From positions 1 through 64,000 of the forward strand of contig JAIBDY010000006.1 of the NCBI GenBank assembly GCA_024685995.1: a stretch of 64,000 nt of DNA, given 5' to 3'. The translations under genes and the position numbers were made by a program. Below the pieces are notes generated by a model. The model did not search any database. It was not told the DNA's origin and saw only the letters and a list, made by a program, of their open reading frames with translations. The DNA comes from Piscirickettsiaceae bacterium (GTDB lineage Bacteria > Pseudomonadota > Gammaproteobacteria > Nitrosococcales > Methylophagaceae). Of this stretch, positions 39,485 through 47,952 are shown piece by piece; position 1 is the first letter of the stretch, and each line of letters starts with the position of its first letter.

Positions 39485-39500
39485 TGGCACGGTCTCTGCA
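39485..39500 (+). promoter_or_regulatory. Sigma-54 promoter of the STAS-CheA-like operon
   Basis: TGGCACGGTCTCTGCA matches the consensus TGGCACG-N4-TTGCA at all but one position, with GG (39486-39487) and GC (39498-39499) spaced by 10 bases. It lies 42 bases past fliJ. The next gene starts at 39714, so the transcript would have a leader of about 200 bases. Confidence 0.85.
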
Positions 39501-39713: not shown

Positions 39714-40007
39714 ATGGCAAGTGCGTTAATACAATTTGACAGCGTGTTGGGGAGGACAGAGTTAACAGCGCTGTACCCAAGACTGCTGTCCGCTTTGCTT
39801 GAGGATCAGCCTCTTGTGCTTGAGTGTGGGCAAATAACGCAAGTTGATACGGCCGCAATACAACTGCTTTATGCCTTTTCTCAACAAGCAGAAATTCATG
39901 GTAAGCGACTGCAATGGTTGCAAGTGAGCGAGGTCTTTTTGCAAGCAGTACGTTTATTGGGGTTAAGGGATTTTCTGGCACAGATAAGGACTGAAGATGT
40001 TATCTGA
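39714..40007 (+). CDS. STAS-domain protein
   Basis: 97-residue single STAS domain (anti-sigma factor antagonist fold). The central strand-loop reads LECGQITQVDTAAIQLLYAF: the usual D-S-S-G phospho-site region is D-T-A-A here, so the serine phosphorylated in SpoIIAA-type proteins appears to be missing. STAS proteins occur in some chemosensory gene sets; their role there is not settled. It is the first gene of a tightly coupled operon, overlapping the CheA-like gene by 11 bases. The ribosome binding site is weak, with GAGG too far upstream. Confidence 0.8.
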   Translation: MASALIQFDSVLGRTELTALYPRLLSALLEDQPLVLECGQITQVDTAAIQLLYAFSQQAEIHGKRLQWLQVSEVFLQAVRLLGLRDFLAQIRTEDVI

Positions 40008-41763
40008 TACTTTGGCTAGCCCAAACAGTTTTGTTGTGCAAAGTGTCGCTAATCTTGATCTGATGGTCAAGGCATTATCAAGCGAAGACAGGACCTTGGA
40101 CAAGGATTCATCTTTTATTCTCGAAAAAGTCAAAGACGGTGCAACGGCTTTGGGTTTAATGTTTGTCACCGAGCTCGCTACGGATTTAGAAAGGGTGTTG
40201 CTGGATATTCAATTACACCAACGGCCACTTACGCCAGCTGTTCGTGCGGCTTTGTTGTCGGTCATAACTGTATTGAAAGACAGTCTGCTGGATAATGACC
40301 AAGCGGATAAATCGAATGCAAAAAGCACAAACGACGTCAATCCGATCAAGCAACACATCAGCGCGCAGCACAACGATAATGACAAGGCGATGCCAGTGGG
40401 GCTGCGAACCTGGGATATTGATTTCAAACCGTTATCGACCTATCTACACTCGGGCGGCGAACCGCTGGCTATTTTCCAGGCGTTGGCGATTCTGGGTGAT
40501 CTTAATGTTGAGGTTGACCAATCTGACTTACCGCTATTTTCGGAATTAGACCCTGAACAATGTTATTTATCATGGCATTTAAACTTAACCAGTTATGCCA
40601 CTCAACAAGACATCGAAGATATTTTTAAGCGTTATCAGGCCGAGGAGCAAATGGTCATCACGCGACCGGAAAATACGGTATTGCCGTTATCGATGCTAGC
40701 CCACGCACCAGCACAAACCGACAAGCTTGATATGCTGCAAAGCTTGCTGTTAGAGCTAACGCAGACGCAGCAGACATTGCTCCAGATAGGCGAACACTTT
40801 AACCCAGCACTATGGCCAAAATTTGACGCCAATCTCACGCAATTAGTAGCGCATACCCACGCCATTGAGGACGTGGTTGGTCAAATGAGAATGTGGCCAA
40901 TACATCACCTTTACCAGCATGTGAAGTTAGTGATTGATGCGTTAGCCGAAACGCTAGGCAAGAAAGTCGAACTGATGCTATCAGGTGGCGAGTTGGAAGT
41001 AGATAAAGCTATTTTAGAGAAAGTCATCGATCCTGTCGTGCAACTGGTTACTATTGCTCTTGAGCATGACAATGTTGATGACGTAACAGTGCAATTAACA
41101 TGCACGCTTCAAGATGGATACATCGTCATCGTCATATTGTGTTCTGGTACCAGTGCCGGGATAGCCGGACCTTTGCCAGAGAACGGGGCGTCAACGTTTA
41201 CTATTGAGACTGTCAAAAAAGCGATTGGCAGTTTGAACGGCAATATTAAGATGGACTCAATACCTGAACAAGGCGTGATGTTCACGGTCTCTGTACCGCA
41301 ACAACACTGGATCATGCAGGGACAAGGGATCATGGTGGGTGACGAACAGTATATTTTGCCGCTGTCGTTGATAATTGAGTCGCTAGAAATCGCGCCCGAT
41401 CAACTAAAAAATATTGCCGGGAAAGGGGACTTATATTTATTTGATGATGCCTATATTCCCGTCTTCTCGCTGACACAATTACTCGATCTCGCAACGTGGA
41501 AACGCCCAGCACAACAGCTCCTGATCATCATGGATATTGCCGGTCAAAAAATAGGCATAGTCGTGGATGAATTATTAAGCCAACAACGTGTCGTGGTAAC
41601 ACATTTAGAAAGGCATTACTGTCAGGTAAAAGGCTTTTATGGTGCGAGTATCATGGGGGATGACTCCGCGGCATTGGTGCTCAATATTGCGGCGTTAATC
41701 GAACACCATACACGGCCTTTTGATGATAAGGCTACGTTAAATGACGTCGAGGTGCGCTCATGA
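39997..41763 (+). CDS. Degenerate CheA-like protein (predicted pseudokinase)
   Basis: 588-residue protein with CheA domain order but without kinase residues. P1-like helical bundle (1-100): the His-box reads E-K-V-K-D-G-A, with E43 where the phosphorylated histidine should be. P2-like region (about 137-225) begins TWDIDFKPLSTYLHSGGEPL, as in many CheA proteins. P3 is short (about 240-265). The ATP-binding P4 region (about 295-435) keeps the QMRMWPI entry motif and GKKVELMLSGGELEVDKAIL, but the N-box is LVTIALEH (asparagine replaced by I353), the G1 D-x-G is C-S-G (382-384), and no G2 glycine loop or lid is present. The C-terminal CheW-like P5 domain (436-575) looks intact. ATGA overlap with cheW. 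Confidence 0.88.
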   Translation: MLSDTLASPNSFVVQSVANLDLMVKALSSEDRTLDKDSSFILEKVKDGATALGLMFVTELATDLERVLLDIQLHQRPLTPAVRAALLSVITVLKDSLLDNDQADKSNAKSTNDVNPIKQHISAQHNDNDKAMPVGLRTWDIDFKPLSTYLHSGGEPLAIFQALAILGDLNVEVDQSDLPLFSELDPEQCYLSWHLNLTSYATQQDIEDIFKRYQAEEQMVITRPENTVLPLSMLAHAPAQTDKLDMLQSLLLELTQTQQTLLQIGEHFNPALWPKFDANLTQLVAHTHAIEDVVGQMRMWPIHHLYQHVKLVIDALAETLGKKVELMLSGGELEVDKAILEKVIDPVVQLVTIALEHDNVDDVTVQLTCTLQDGYIVIVILCSGTSAGIAGPLPENGASTFTIETVKKAIGSLNGNIKMDSIPEQGVMFTVSVPQQHWIMQGQGIMVGDEQYILPLSLIIESLEIAPDQLKNIAGKGDLYLFDDAYIPVFSLTQLLDLATWKRPAQQLLIIMDIAGQKIGIVVDELLSQQRVVVTHLERHYCQVKGFYGASIMGDDSAALVLNIAALIEHHTRPFDDKATLNDVEVRS

Positions 41764-42245
41764 TAGAGGAGTTAAACGCCCCGCCCTTGTGTTCAACAAG
41801 CGATGCCTATTTGATATTAAATTTAGGCGAAGCGGTGTTTGGTATTGAGGTCTCGAAGATCATAGAAATGAGAAATTGGCTTGCTGTCACACGCTTACCA
41901 AAAACCCCCGATTATGTCTGTGGACTACGCAATGTGCGTGGCAATATTGTGCCCATCATGGACTTACGGCAGCGCTTGGCATTGGCTAAAAAGGCGCATG
42001 ACAAGACGACTGTGGTTATTTTGCTGCAAGTCAACGATAAAGCAAGACAAACTACGAAGGTCATGGGCCTTGCCGTTGATGCCGTATCCGATGCTTTGCC
42101 AATAGCATCAAACAGCATCAAAGCCGCACCAGATTTCGGACAACAGCTGAATACAAGTTATATCAAAGGCTTATCAGAAATAAACGGTAATCTGGTGACG
42201 TTATTAGACACCGATATGCTATTTAGCATTGATGCCTTAGTGTAG
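41760..42245 (+). CDS. cheW: CheW-like chemotaxis coupling protein
   Basis: 161-residue single-domain CheW with typical features: YLILNLGEAVFGIEVSKIIE at the N-terminus, VRGNIVPIMDLRQRLAL in the middle and the GLAVDAVSDAL and IKGLSEINGNLVTLLD segments toward the end. CheW links receptors to the P5 domain of CheA. It overlaps the CheA-like gene by 4 bases, so it probably pairs with that protein rather than with a canonical CheA encoded elsewhere, though it could serve both. Confidence 0.92.
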   Translation: MIEELNAPPLCSTSDAYLILNLGEAVFGIEVSKIIEMRNWLAVTRLPKTPDYVCGLRNVRGNIVPIMDLRQRLALAKKAHDKTTVVILLQVNDKARQTTKVMGLAVDAVSDALPIASNSIKAAPDFGQQLNTSYIKGLSEINGNLVTLLDTDMLFSIDALV

Positions 42246-42269
42246 TTGGGTGATTCAGGTTAATTTGTA

Positions 42270-43019
42270 GTGACAAGGGTAATCGCAATTATGAATCAGC
42301 AAGCACAAGTGGGGAAAACGACACTGGCGTTGGGTTTGGCTTATGCTTTAGCGCGTAAAGGTCAGAGCGTGTTAGCGATTGATTTAGACCCCGCAAGTCG
42401 ACTAACAAGCTTGTGCGGTATACCGTCGTCAACGAGGGGTATAGATAAAGTGTTGTTAGAGGGCTCGCCTTTATTGCAAGTAAAAACGACCTTAGCAGCG
42501 GGTTTTGATGTGGTGCCTTCAGGGACTCAGTTAATAGCCTATGAACAGCGTGAGGGAGATGAGATGCACCGAGCTTACCGTTTAAAACAAGCGATAGAAA
42601 CACTGGATCAGCAAGATTTTATTCTCATCGACTGCACTAGCAAGCCAGGACTGTTAACAATGAGTGCCATGTTTGCGGCAGATGAAGTGTTAATACCAAC
42701 GACGAGTAGCTACCTTTCTTTACAAGGTTTGGTGCGTGTTATTCAATTATTTAAACGCTTGAAACTGACCTCAACAAGCAAAAAAATATGGTTAACCTTG
42801 ACTCAAGGAAGGGCCGATAATCCAGTGGCAGAAGAGGTTAAGTGTAAGTTATTGCATTATTTTCCGGGTCGAGTATTCAATACATCGATAAGGCATGATG
42901 AGACCTTGACTGCAAACCAGCATCAGAATGAAGCCATGGTTGACTATCAACAAGATAGTATGGGGGCTGAGGACTACTTCTCGCTCGCTCAAGATATGAT
43001 AGAAGGGAGAGTCAGCTAA
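42270..43019 (+). CDS. ParA/Soj-like ATPase with altered Walker A
   Basis: 249-residue ParA/MinD-type P-loop protein starting at GTG 42270, which gives the expected family N-terminus MTRVIAIMNQ. The Walker A loop reads N-Q-Q-A-Q-V-G-K-T-T: the P-loop lysine (K16) is kept, but the signature lysine of the deviant KGGVGKT motif is Q11 and the two glycines are A and Q. IDLDPAS and FILIDCTSKPGL (Walker B) follow, with C-terminal basic segment TSIRHDE. ParC-type ATPases in Vibrio place chemotaxis arrays at the pole, and a similar positioning role here is inferred. It lies 24 bases after cheW and shares a base with the next start. Confidence 0.85.
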   Translation: MTRVIAIMNQQAQVGKTTLALGLAYALARKGQSVLAIDLDPASRLTSLCGIPSSTRGIDKVLLEGSPLLQVKTTLAAGFDVVPSGTQLIAYEQREGDEMHRAYRLKQAIETLDQQDFILIDCTSKPGLLTMSAMFAADEVLIPTTSSYLSLQGLVRVIQLFKRLKLTSTSKKIWLTLTQGRADNPVAEEVKCKLLHYFPGRVFNTSIRHDETLTANQHQNEAMVDYQQDSMGAEDYFSLAQDMIEGRVS

Positions 43020-44911
43020 TGGCTGAAAAGACAACGCTCACACCACAATTGCCAGAGGCAGAATCTAAAAAACGAACTCGGACGCGATATAATCTTGCGT
43101 CATCGATGGTAAAGCAGAAAGGTAGCAAAACGACATTAGAAATCGTAGAACACAGTTTTGCTAAATTGATCGAACAAGGTGAGCTCTTAACCGTTCGCTT
43201 TTTCGAACGACTGTTATCTGAACACCCCGATCTTGCGCCTTTATTTAACGGCGTGTCATTAGATGGTCAACAAAAGAAATTTTTTGCATCGTTGGTGTTG
43301 ATTGTACAAAGCTTGCGTCAACCTGACGTATTGGCTGATTATTTACGAGGTTTAGGTGCAAGACATCAACATTATGGTGTCAAAGCTCGATACTACCCGT
43401 TAATGATAGAAAACTTGCTGGCGGTCATGGCCGAATTATCCGGCAGCGAATGGACTGCCGATGTAGCACAAGCTTGGCAAGAAACCCTTAGCGAAATCAC
43501 GGCCACGATGATGGCCTCCTCTGACCGAGACGAAGCGATAACCGACCCGCACAGCGAACAAAGGTCTGAGCCAATAGCGGCTGATACCGAGGCATCAGCA
43601 AGCCCAGAGACCGAACTCGTCCAGTTACGAGGCTCGGTGGATGAATATCAAGCTCAGTTATTGGCAATAGAAAAAATAATGGCCGTAGCCAGCTTTGATA
43701 TGACAGGCAGTATACTGGATGCAAATGACCTTTTCTCAACCTTGATGGGCTATGAAAAGGCGGCACTCATCGGACAGTCGCACCATCACTTACTCAAAGA
43801 AGGGCAGAATTACGTCGCATTATGGGAATGTCTCAATCAAGGCGAAGGACAAGCAGGGGAGTTCCAGTGGCGACGTAGTGATGGCACGTTTGTGTCAGTT
43901 CAAGCCAGTTATCACGTTATCTTAGACGATGATAAAAGGCCATTGAAAGTGGTTTGTCATATGAGTCCGATGACAGGTATGAAGCTCGCTCAGGGTGCCG
44001 TCGAGGCGCTGTTATCACAAGCATCTAGTGTGATGAAATCGGTATCTAAGGGAAATTTTACGCAAAAAATAGAAGGGATCTATGATGGCAGTTTAGCCGT
44101 CTTACAAACGGCAATCAACGATGCGATTGATAATCTTGCCACGATACTTAAGCAAACACACAAAACTGCAGCCAATATCAATATTTCGGCCACAGAAACA
44201 GTAAAAGACATTATTGATTTAAGTACACGAATAGATCAACAAGCAGCCTTAGTCGAGCAGACAGCTTCAACACTAGCGCGTTTAGCCATTGATAAACAGC
44301 AAAGCACTGTGAATGTCGACCCAATCCAACAATGGGTACTGGATGTGCAAGGGCAGTTGGAAACCAGTCGGTCGCTAATGGAACAATTGATAACAGAGAC
44401 GACGGTATTGATGCCGTCTTATTTCGGTAAAACGGAGACCATCAATGAGCTTGATGATATTGCTTTTCAAATCAATTTGTTGGCATTGAATGCCGCTGTT
44501 GAGGCCGCGCGAGCAGGCGTGCACGGTCGTGGCTTTGCACTGATTTCAACCGAGTTGAAAAATTTAACACATCGCGCAGCCGCCATGGTCAGGGAGATAA
44601 AGGTAGACGGAATTGAAGGTGAACAAAAAGTGCATTCAAACCTGATATTAATGAAAGAGAGCGACCAAAACTTGGAGCAGCTCATCAATAACGCGGCACA
44701 CCTTCAACATAGCCGTGCCCAACTGAAGATATCAGAGCATGGACAAGGGCTTAATACAGATCAAATTAGCCAGATGGTTAAGCAGTTGAGCGAAATGATG
44801 CAACGCAATGTGCCATTTGTAGATAAAGCGGTATCGATGAGCCAATTTTTAGACGAGCAAAATAGAACATTACAGGAGCTTGTGGATTTCTTTGAATTTG
44901 GGAGGGAGTAA
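43019..44911 (+). CDS. Soluble globin-PAS chemoreceptor
   Basis: 630-residue cytoplasmic methyl-accepting protein without membrane segments. A flavohemoglobin-type globin domain (about 40-165) has FFERLLSEHPDLAPLFN and a proximal-histidine region GARHQHYGVKARYYP (H116); phenylalanine replaces the B10 tyrosine of Hmp-type globins. A PAS domain (about 205-320) follows, then a HAMP-like linker and the signalling hairpin with tip [20 protein letters not shown] at about 481-500. Heme binding, and so O2 or NO sensing, is inferred. It starts on the last base of the ParA-like stop (TAATG). The signalling coils away from the tip are more divergent than usual. Confidence 0.88.
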   Translation: MAEKTTLTPQLPEAESKKRTRTRYNLASSMVKQKGSKTTLEIVEHSFAKLIEQGELLTVRFFERLLSEHPDLAPLFNGVSLDGQQKKFFASLVLIVQSLRQPDVLADYLRGLGARHQHYGVKARYYPLMIENLLAVMAELSGSEWTADVAQAWQETLSEITATMMASSDRDEAITDPHSEQRSEPIAADTEASASPETELVQLRGSVDEYQAQLLAIEKIMAVASFDMTGSILDANDLFSTLMGYEKAALIGQSHHHLLKEGQNYVALWECLNQGEGQAGEFQWRRSDGTFVSVQASYHVILDDDKRPLKVVCHMSPMTGMKLAQGAVEALLSQASSVMKSVSKGNFTQKIEGIYDGSLAVLQTAINDAIDNLATILKQTHKTAANINISATETVKDIIDLSTRIDQQAALVEQTASTLARLAIDKQQSTVNVDPIQQWVLDVQGQLETSRSLMEQLITETTVLMPSYFGKTETINELDDIAFQINLLALNAAVEAARAGVHGRGFALISTELKNLTHRAAAMVREIKVDGIEGEQKVHSNLILMKESDQNLEQLINNAAHLQHSRAQLKISEHGQGLNTDQISQMVKQLSEMMQRNVPFVDKAVSMSQFLDEQNRTLQELVDFFEFGRE

Positions 44912-46729: not shown

Positions 46730-46758
46730 AGTAAGCCCTTTGGACAAAGGAATTGTGG

Positions 46759-47952
46759 ATGTTTAAGTTAGAAAACTATTCGTTAAAAAAACGGATGCAG
46801 CTAATGGCGGTCATTGGCATCATTGGTTTATTTACCTTAACGGTCATTTATTGGTGGCTTGGTGCGTCAGGTATGAGTCATGCGGAACAAGGTAAAATTG
46901 GTTTGTTATTTACGATTATTGCTAGTCTCTCACTTTATATTATCGCCACCTATATCGGTAATTTTGGTGCACAACGCGCGAATAGTATCGTCGCGAGTAT
47001 TCAAAACATTAAACAAGGTGATTTGACACAAAAAATTGTGATATCAGGTAAGAGTGATTTTAGCTGGATGGCTTATGAGTTAGATAGTGCCCGCAAAAAC
47101 GTCTCGACCTTAGTACATACCTTGATTGGCGGGGTGGCGCAATTGGACACTGCCACAAAAAATATGACTTCTATCAGCAACGAGACAGTTGAGGGTGTGT
47201 TGCTACAGCAATCTGAAACCAGCCAAGTGGCGACGGCGATGAATGAGATGGCAGCTTCCGTGCAAGAAGTGGCTAGAACAGCAGCCAATACTGCGGAAAC
47301 AGCCCGTAATGCCGATGGTGAAGCTCAAGCGGGTAAATACGTTGTAACGGAAGCAATGGATGCGATTCAATCACTCGCTGACGAGGTTGAAAAGGCTGCC
47401 GAAACGCTGAATGACTTGGAGCAAGATATTGGTAATATTGGTGCGGTGGTCGATGTAATTCGGGGGATTACCGAGCAAACCAATTTGTTGGCTTTAAATG
47501 CGGCTATTGAAGCAGCACGAGCCGGTGAGTATGGTCGTGGCTTTGCCGTGGTTGCCGATGAAGTTCGTACGCTAGCGGCTAGAACGCAGTCATCAACGCA
47601 TGAAATTGAAGGGATGGTCGGTCGCCTTCAAAGTGGTGCTAAGACAGCCGTTAAAGTGATGAATGAAGGCCGTGATCGGGCTCAAACTAGTGTTGAAAAA
47701 GCAGCCAATGCCGGTGTAGCTTTGGATTCAATTACCGCTATGATCACCAGAATGGATGAAATGAATGCTGCGATTGCTAGTGCTGCCACCCAACAATCTG
47801 CTGTGGCAGAAGATATTAATCGTAGTATCGTGAATATTAGCCAAGTGGCAGAGCAGACTGCGGATGGGGCAAGAGAGACATCAACAGCGGTGGAAACCAT
47901 GTCGGCACTGTCGGCACAGCTTCAAGAGGCTGCGAGTAAATTCAGGGTTTAA
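46759..47952 (+). CDS. Methyl-accepting chemotaxis protein
   Basis: 397-residue receptor with two closely spaced N-terminal membrane segments (about 13-35 and 45-70), almost no periplasmic part, a HAMP-like linker (about 72-120) and a normal cytoplasmic signalling domain with hairpin tip [20 protein letters not shown]. With so little periplasmic sequence it probably senses a membrane or internal cue, as Aer-2-like or energy receptors do. The ATG at 46759 follows AAGGA by 8 bases; an upstream TTG (46753) is less likely. It is probably cotranscribed with fliK. Confidence 0.93.

Follow-up and report, generated by a model that had tools for sequence, protein, structure and literature searches.

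A chemosensory operon between fliJ and fliK of a Methylophagaceae bacterium appears to be a stage 1 F7 system reduced to its putative lattice and docking parts

A five-gene operon encoding a STAS protein, a CheA-like protein, CheW, a ParA-like ATPase and a soluble globin-PAS receptor lies between fliJ and fliK in the window, the 64,000-nucleotide stretch analyzed here (positions 1 to 64,000 of contig JAIBDY010000006.1, assembly GCA_024685995.1, from a marine methylotroph, a Piscirickettsiaceae bacterium of the Methylophagaceae). Judged by sequence comparison, this operon almost certainly descends, in reduced form, from a stage 1 F7 chemosensory system of the gammaproteobacterial type. The losses fall into three modules of chemistry: phosphotransfer (CheY together with the P1 histidine and N-box of CheA), adaptation (CheR, CheD and CheB with the W[DE]EF receptor tail), and probable ParA docking (the ParA signature lysine with the receptor motif G.DPLAW). 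The remainder may be a working, non-phosphorylating lattice of receptor, CheW and the P5 domain of the CheA-like protein, with a docking face made of P2 and STAS, a proposal that we consider evenly poised.

The fliJ-fliK interval was annotated in approximately 40 relatives of the window genome, mostly assemblies of varying completeness. In most of them this site holds a complete cluster, encoding STAS, CheY, a CheA of about 700 amino acids, CheW, ParA, a globin receptor, CheR, CheD and CheB, usually with a second receptor after CheB. This order matches that published for stage 1 F7 systems (STAS-cheY-cheA-cheW-receptor-cheR-cheD-cheB; PMC7184735), except that ParA occupies the slot expected for one of two CheW genes. 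As in cluster III of Vibrio cholerae and in Methylomicrobium alcaliphilum (Ortega et al. 2020, PMC7184735), the main receptor is soluble and the order extends to a McpA-like receptor, whereas the ParA gene, the globin receptor and the fliJ/fliK site distinguish the Methylophagaceae version. What stage 1 F7 systems do has been described as unclear (PMC7184735, PMC7534058).

The window operon is the homologous locus minus CheY, CheR, CheD, CheB and the second receptor, and thus departs from the stage 1 order; the catalytic residues of its CheA and ParA are gone as well. No CheD was located in the window genome, the assembly of which is incomplete. Synteny and homology with the intact relatives are the grounds for placing its descent in stage 1 F7. 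Because the operon derives from this known class, the proposal of an undescribed system in a first-pass annotation of the window is unsupported; the missing catalytic residues of CheA and ParA are supported, and so is the non-phosphorylating array with a heme-type sensor, now as a descendant of an intact array. An insertion between fliJ and fliK specific to this genome is ruled out, the position being old and common to the relatives. Many other Gammaproteobacteria have clusters of this type too, some of them likewise between fliJ and fliK (L113, L144, L168).

In a tree built from seven proteins of the region, the window genome (G000) forms a clade with G010, G011 and G016 (100% bootstrap). CheY, the P1 histidine and the N-box are missing from each of the four, and their loss is therefore most simply placed in the common ancestor of the clade. 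Later changes include the fusion of STAS to P2 and loss of ParA in G010, loss of P1 in G011, and loss of STAS in G016. A separate reduction is seen in G035, which belongs to the other main genus and groups with intact clusters (82% support). In this 99% complete genome the CheA remnant has 301 amino acids and consists of P2 and P5 only, with STAS, CheW and the globin receptor kept alongside an intact ParA and DPLAWL. G015 represents an earlier stage, with P1 lost, P4 boxes changing, and CheY and ParA intact. All five CheY-less clusters that were traced to fliK lack both the CheA histidine and the N-box; here and below, tallies count genomes rather than independent events, with each type of loss occurring in several separate places of the tree.

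In the window CheA-like protein, the IFRAAHSIKGG of relatives, which carries the P1 histidine, reads SSFILEKVKDG, and in P4 LVRNSLDHGLE has become LVTIALEH and DDGAGLN has become CSGTSAG, with the F and G2 boxes absent. Pfam detects only P5 above its cut-off, with Hpt below threshold and P3 and P4 not found. By comparison, P1, P3, P4 and P5 were present in every one of thousands of CheA sequences surveyed (PMC10782961). Among the short frames inspected in 369 gammaproteobacterial genomes, none was another CheA of P2 and P5 only; each came from a split or frameshifted gene or from the end of a contig. Two F7 CheA genes from other families, on long contigs, lie in adjacent frames (L173 in G095 and L174 in G380) and are either frameshifted or genuinely split.

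Domain conservation is rearranged in the reduced clade. Between intact pairs, identity is about 0.9 for P3 and about 0.8–0.9 for P1, P4 and P5, and is lowest for P2 (mostly 0.62–0.78). Between reduced pairs, P2 and P5 are highest at about 0.3–0.45, and P1, P3 and P4 fall to about 0.1–0.35. The rank is thus inverted: P2, the least conserved domain of intact CheA, is with P5 the most conserved one after reduction.

Pairwise codon models were used to compare G000 with G011. The ratio of nonsynonymous to synonymous rates (omega) is itself saturated, the very low values at t near 55 being artefacts, and only the test against omega = 1 was used. Neutrality is rejected for the CheA-like protein (twice the log-likelihood difference, 75), CheW (41), the ParA-like protein (69) and the receptor (176). 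Elevated omega across the genes, which the first-pass annotation had named as grounds for refutation, was thus not observed, with values below 1 for four of the five proteins and STAS borderline. At four-fold sites in neighboring flagellar genes, 65–71% of positions differ between members of the reduced clade, which is near saturation. In 2,000 neutral simulations run to a much smaller divergence, 0.2 changes per site, neither the CheA-like frame nor that of the receptor ever stayed open. Purifying selection is still seen on the receptor tip, CheW, P5, P2 and STAS, with the weakest evidence for STAS.

Several observations weigh against a maintained function. STAS alone fails to reject omega = 1 (twice the log-likelihood difference, 3.5). 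The reduced proteins evolve much faster, CheW identity being 0.29–0.47 as compared to 0.64–0.90 in intact systems, and this acceleration indicates that selection on the reduced operon is relaxed, though present. Component sets vary, with ParA missing in G010, STAS missing in G016 and, outside the clade, ParA alone left in G007. The AlphaFold model of the CheA-like protein has five CheA-like domain folds and matches CheA structures (predicted local distance difference test score 74, predicted template modelling score 0.43), but the alignment behind it consisted of intact CheA proteins, which biases the model towards that fold. Finally, the window genome (1.84 Mb) is an assembly that is 82% complete.

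The main and serious rival, to which we give appreciable probability although well short of even, is slow loss: a relic under residual constraint, without new function, seen in lineages at different stages. A graded series of this kind can indeed be assembled, from loss of adaptation only (G001, the G037 clade and probably G024), through loss of P1 in G015 and of kinase and CheY in the G000 clade and G035, to the lone ParA of G007, with everything elsewhere gone together with the flagellum; the quicker evolution of the reduced clade fits as well. However, after the loss the frames have stayed open with omega below 1 across a divergence that saturates four-fold sites, the promoter is kept in three of the four clade members, and P2 and P5 were retained in two unrelated reductions. 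A search of the neighborhood in relatives, with comparison of residues, shows that the CheA histidine and N-box do survive there, which is what the first-pass annotation had named as showing simple decay of this copy. Plain decay is nevertheless a poor fit, because omega is below 1, the frames are open through deep divergence and reduction has recurred independently.

The adaptation module has been lost coherently. The window receptor has lost both the C-terminal W[DE]EF tail and the N-terminal DPLAWL motif, and has conserved the globin histidine region (RHQHYGV) and the hairpin tip of the methyl-accepting chemotaxis protein (MCP) domain. Its domains, RHQHYGV and the tip identify it as a globin-coupled receptor, and heme binding is predicted. 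The earlier view that CheW and the receptor look functional therefore stands for the CheW domain and for the globin and tip regions, and not for the two termini. The NCBIfam profile for Aer2, whose receptor class (36H) has 36 heptads in the signalling domain, matches the HAMP and MCP region (residues 331–626) at a score far below cut-off. Across the clusters, the tail is present in 19 of 19 that have CheR and missing from 13 of 14 that do not, the exception being G048, which has CheR, CheD and CheB in a second cluster. In the Che2 system of Pseudomonas aeruginosa, the C-terminal GWEEF pentapeptide of McpB (Aer2) binds CheR2 and CheB2 (PMC7698151). This pentapeptide resembles the W[DE]EF end of the intact relatives, whereas the window receptor lost its tail along with cheR, cheD and cheB. 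Second F7 clusters lie elsewhere in two genomes, G048 (L077) and G023 (L072); the latter assembly has 6% contamination, and its second copy may be foreign.

The ParA-like protein carries a deviant Walker A motif, QAQVGKTT rather than KGGVGKTT, with the signature lysine of KGGxGKT lost and the GKT of the P-loop preserved; its arginine motif is also lost. Intact F7 ParA proteins outside the Methylophagaceae have QKGGVGKTT wherever the motif is readable. The ParA KGG and the receptor DPLAWL occur together in 24 genomes and are both absent from 12, with KGG alone in two and the motif alone in none (the G036 ParA being scored as KGG).

Eighty F7 loci were collected using intact CheA as the query; the window CheA-like protein retrieved no relative from the genome contigs. 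The plus-strand translation of these loci, about 1.28 million residues, contains 36 matches to the pattern G.DP[LM][AS]W[LMI], every one at the N-terminus encoded by the gene that immediately follows ParA (e.g. L114:15360-15818 and L129:12396-14981). In Methylophagaceae and Thioalkalivibrio (L129) the motif is borne by the globin receptor, and in most other groups by a STAS protein. Both carrier types are joined in a 292-amino-acid globin-STAS protein with a DPLSW motif, again directly after ParA (L150:15652-16527). Some ParA-bearing F7 loci have no such motif. Because one motif occurs on differing carriers and always adjoins ParA, G.DPLAW is best read as a putative ParA docking or activating peptide. 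A full-text literature search found no published description of it.

A ParA homologue of Rhodobacter sphaeroides, PpfA, positions a cytoplasmic cluster via the soluble receptor TlpT (PMC6829392). That cluster likewise combines soluble receptors, a ParA homologue and CheA proteins missing parts, but CheA3 and CheA4 complement each other and phosphorylate CheY6, and the window locus has no partner kinase. The suggestion that the operon forms a polar landmark is weakened, since the ParA signature and the likely docking motif are both gone in the reduced clade. In the intact relatives, the motif gives a specific and cheap test of how ParA finds the F7 array.

The P2 region of other CheA proteins is the binding site of CheS and CheY. 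The CheS protein of Sinorhizobium meliloti is a STAS-only protein that binds CheA and affects its binding of CheY (PMC12654446). The window STAS is a candidate CheS-like protein by its position and size and by the STAS::P2 fusion of G010, which fits a CheS-CheA complex. As in S. meliloti, a small STAS-only protein is encoded with cheA; unlike there, CheY is lost, CheA is kinase-dead and the STAS-CheA contact is predicted. The D-[T/A]-A motif of this STAS is identical to that of intact relatives, which rules it out as a degenerate member. Of the three proteins thought to lack the residues defining their families, this leaves the CheA-like protein (histidine and N-box) and the ParA-like protein (signature).

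A non-phosphorylating lattice with a P2/STAS docking face is favored because the kept parts are the lattice builders and the P2/STAS pair, and because CheS binds CheA. Receptor, CheW and P5 would still build a lattice in the cytoplasm, a ligand at the globin or PAS domain would alter it, and any output would pass through binding at the P2/STAS face instead of phosphotransfer. The sigma-54 promoter suggests expression with flagellar genes, and this promoter together with gene position hints at coupling to the flagellum. More generally, we propose tentatively, at somewhat below even confidence, that kinase-free arrays of receptor, CheW and a CheA working via P2 and P5, with STAS, are a stable functional state with output by protein docking, and that in intact relatives G.DPLAW is the dock by which ParA positions the array.

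The genome also has an F6 cluster, complete where seen, with CheY, CheZ, a CheA in which P1, P3, P4 and P5 are all found, CheB, MotAB-type stator genes and CheW. Swimming control therefore need not depend on the reduced operon. As a special case of the favored model, P2 and STAS could form a passive dock that buffers F6 CheY near the array. We consider this improbable, although P2 binds CheY in CheA proteins generally, CheS influences such binding in S. meliloti (PMC12654446) and P2 was kept in both independent reductions despite loss of their own CheY; P2 may persist merely for STAS binding or folding. Alternatively, receptor, CheW and P5 might co-assemble into the flagellar F6 array and relay the globin signal to its intact CheA. 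The full domain set of that CheA and the ability of V. cholerae Aer2 to drive E. coli CheA (PMC7534058) would permit this, but such F7 receptors form arrays separate from F6 in the species imaged (PMC7184735, PMC7534058), and the retention of P2 and STAS would be unaccounted for, making co-assembly a poor prospect. The natural losses in relatives separate the three modules and reveal the parts kept once chemistry is gone, making it testable whether an F7 array has a CheY-independent role.

The five open reading frames were reproduced with their coordinates and junctions as first annotated: STAS and the CheA-like gene overlap by 11 bases, the CheA-like gene and cheW by 4, and the ParA-like and receptor genes by 1, with a 24-base gap between cheW and the ParA-like gene. 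The near-consensus sigma-54 promoter was likewise confirmed, TGGCACGGTCTCTGCA departing from TGGCACGN4TTGCW at one position. Most members of the genus, G011 and G016 among them, have the near-identical TGGCATGGTCTCTGCA at the corresponding site downstream of fliJ; within the reduced clade only G010 has lost the promoter.

Table 1. Coordinates of the reduced F7 operon and its predicted parts in the window.
Feature	Position	Strand	Remarks
Sigma-54-type promoter TGGCACGGTCTCTGCA	39485..39500	+	229 bases upstream of STAS
STAS-only protein, candidate CheS-like (F7 'anti-sigma factor antagonist')	39714..40007	+	Pfam STAS_2 2e-13; ortholog of first gene of intact clusters
CheA-like protein, predicted kinase-dead (His missing from P1; N-box and G-boxes missing from P4)	39997..41763	+	
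P2 domain of CheA-like protein	40402..40674	+	With P5, relatively best conserved; omega = 1 rejected
P5 (CheW-like) domain of CheA-like protein	41305..41721	+	Pfam CheW 1.4e-19; omega = 1 rejected
CheW coupling protein	41760..42245	+	Pfam CheW 1.6e-29; omega = 1 rejected within reduced clade
ParA-like ATPase, QAQVGKTT, Arg motif lost	42270..43019	+	GTG start; Pfam ParA/AAA_31
Soluble globin-PAS-HAMP-MCP receptor, W[DE]EF tail and DPLAWL lost	43019..44911	+	Pfam Globin 1.8e-15, PAS, MCPsignal 3.4e-20

Other variants occur between fliJ and fliK in the family. Nothing but ParA is left at L071 (G007), L080 (G039) holds a cluster without the receptor, and L089 (G048) holds STAS, a CheY fragment, ParA and the receptor without CheA. 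A Methylophagaceae subclade (L073, L074, L075, L081, L084 and L088, from G043, G038, G037, G042, G050 and G056, respectively) took a different route of reduction, in which CheY and most CheA catalytic motifs are kept, CheR, CheD and CheB are gone, the receptor is short with a strongly altered tip, and ParA is altered (QTHDVGKTT). Directly 3′ of fliK, the window carries another receptor gene (46753-47952, TTG start), which has approximately 70–75% identity in most flagellated relatives and is far better conserved than the F7 receptor.

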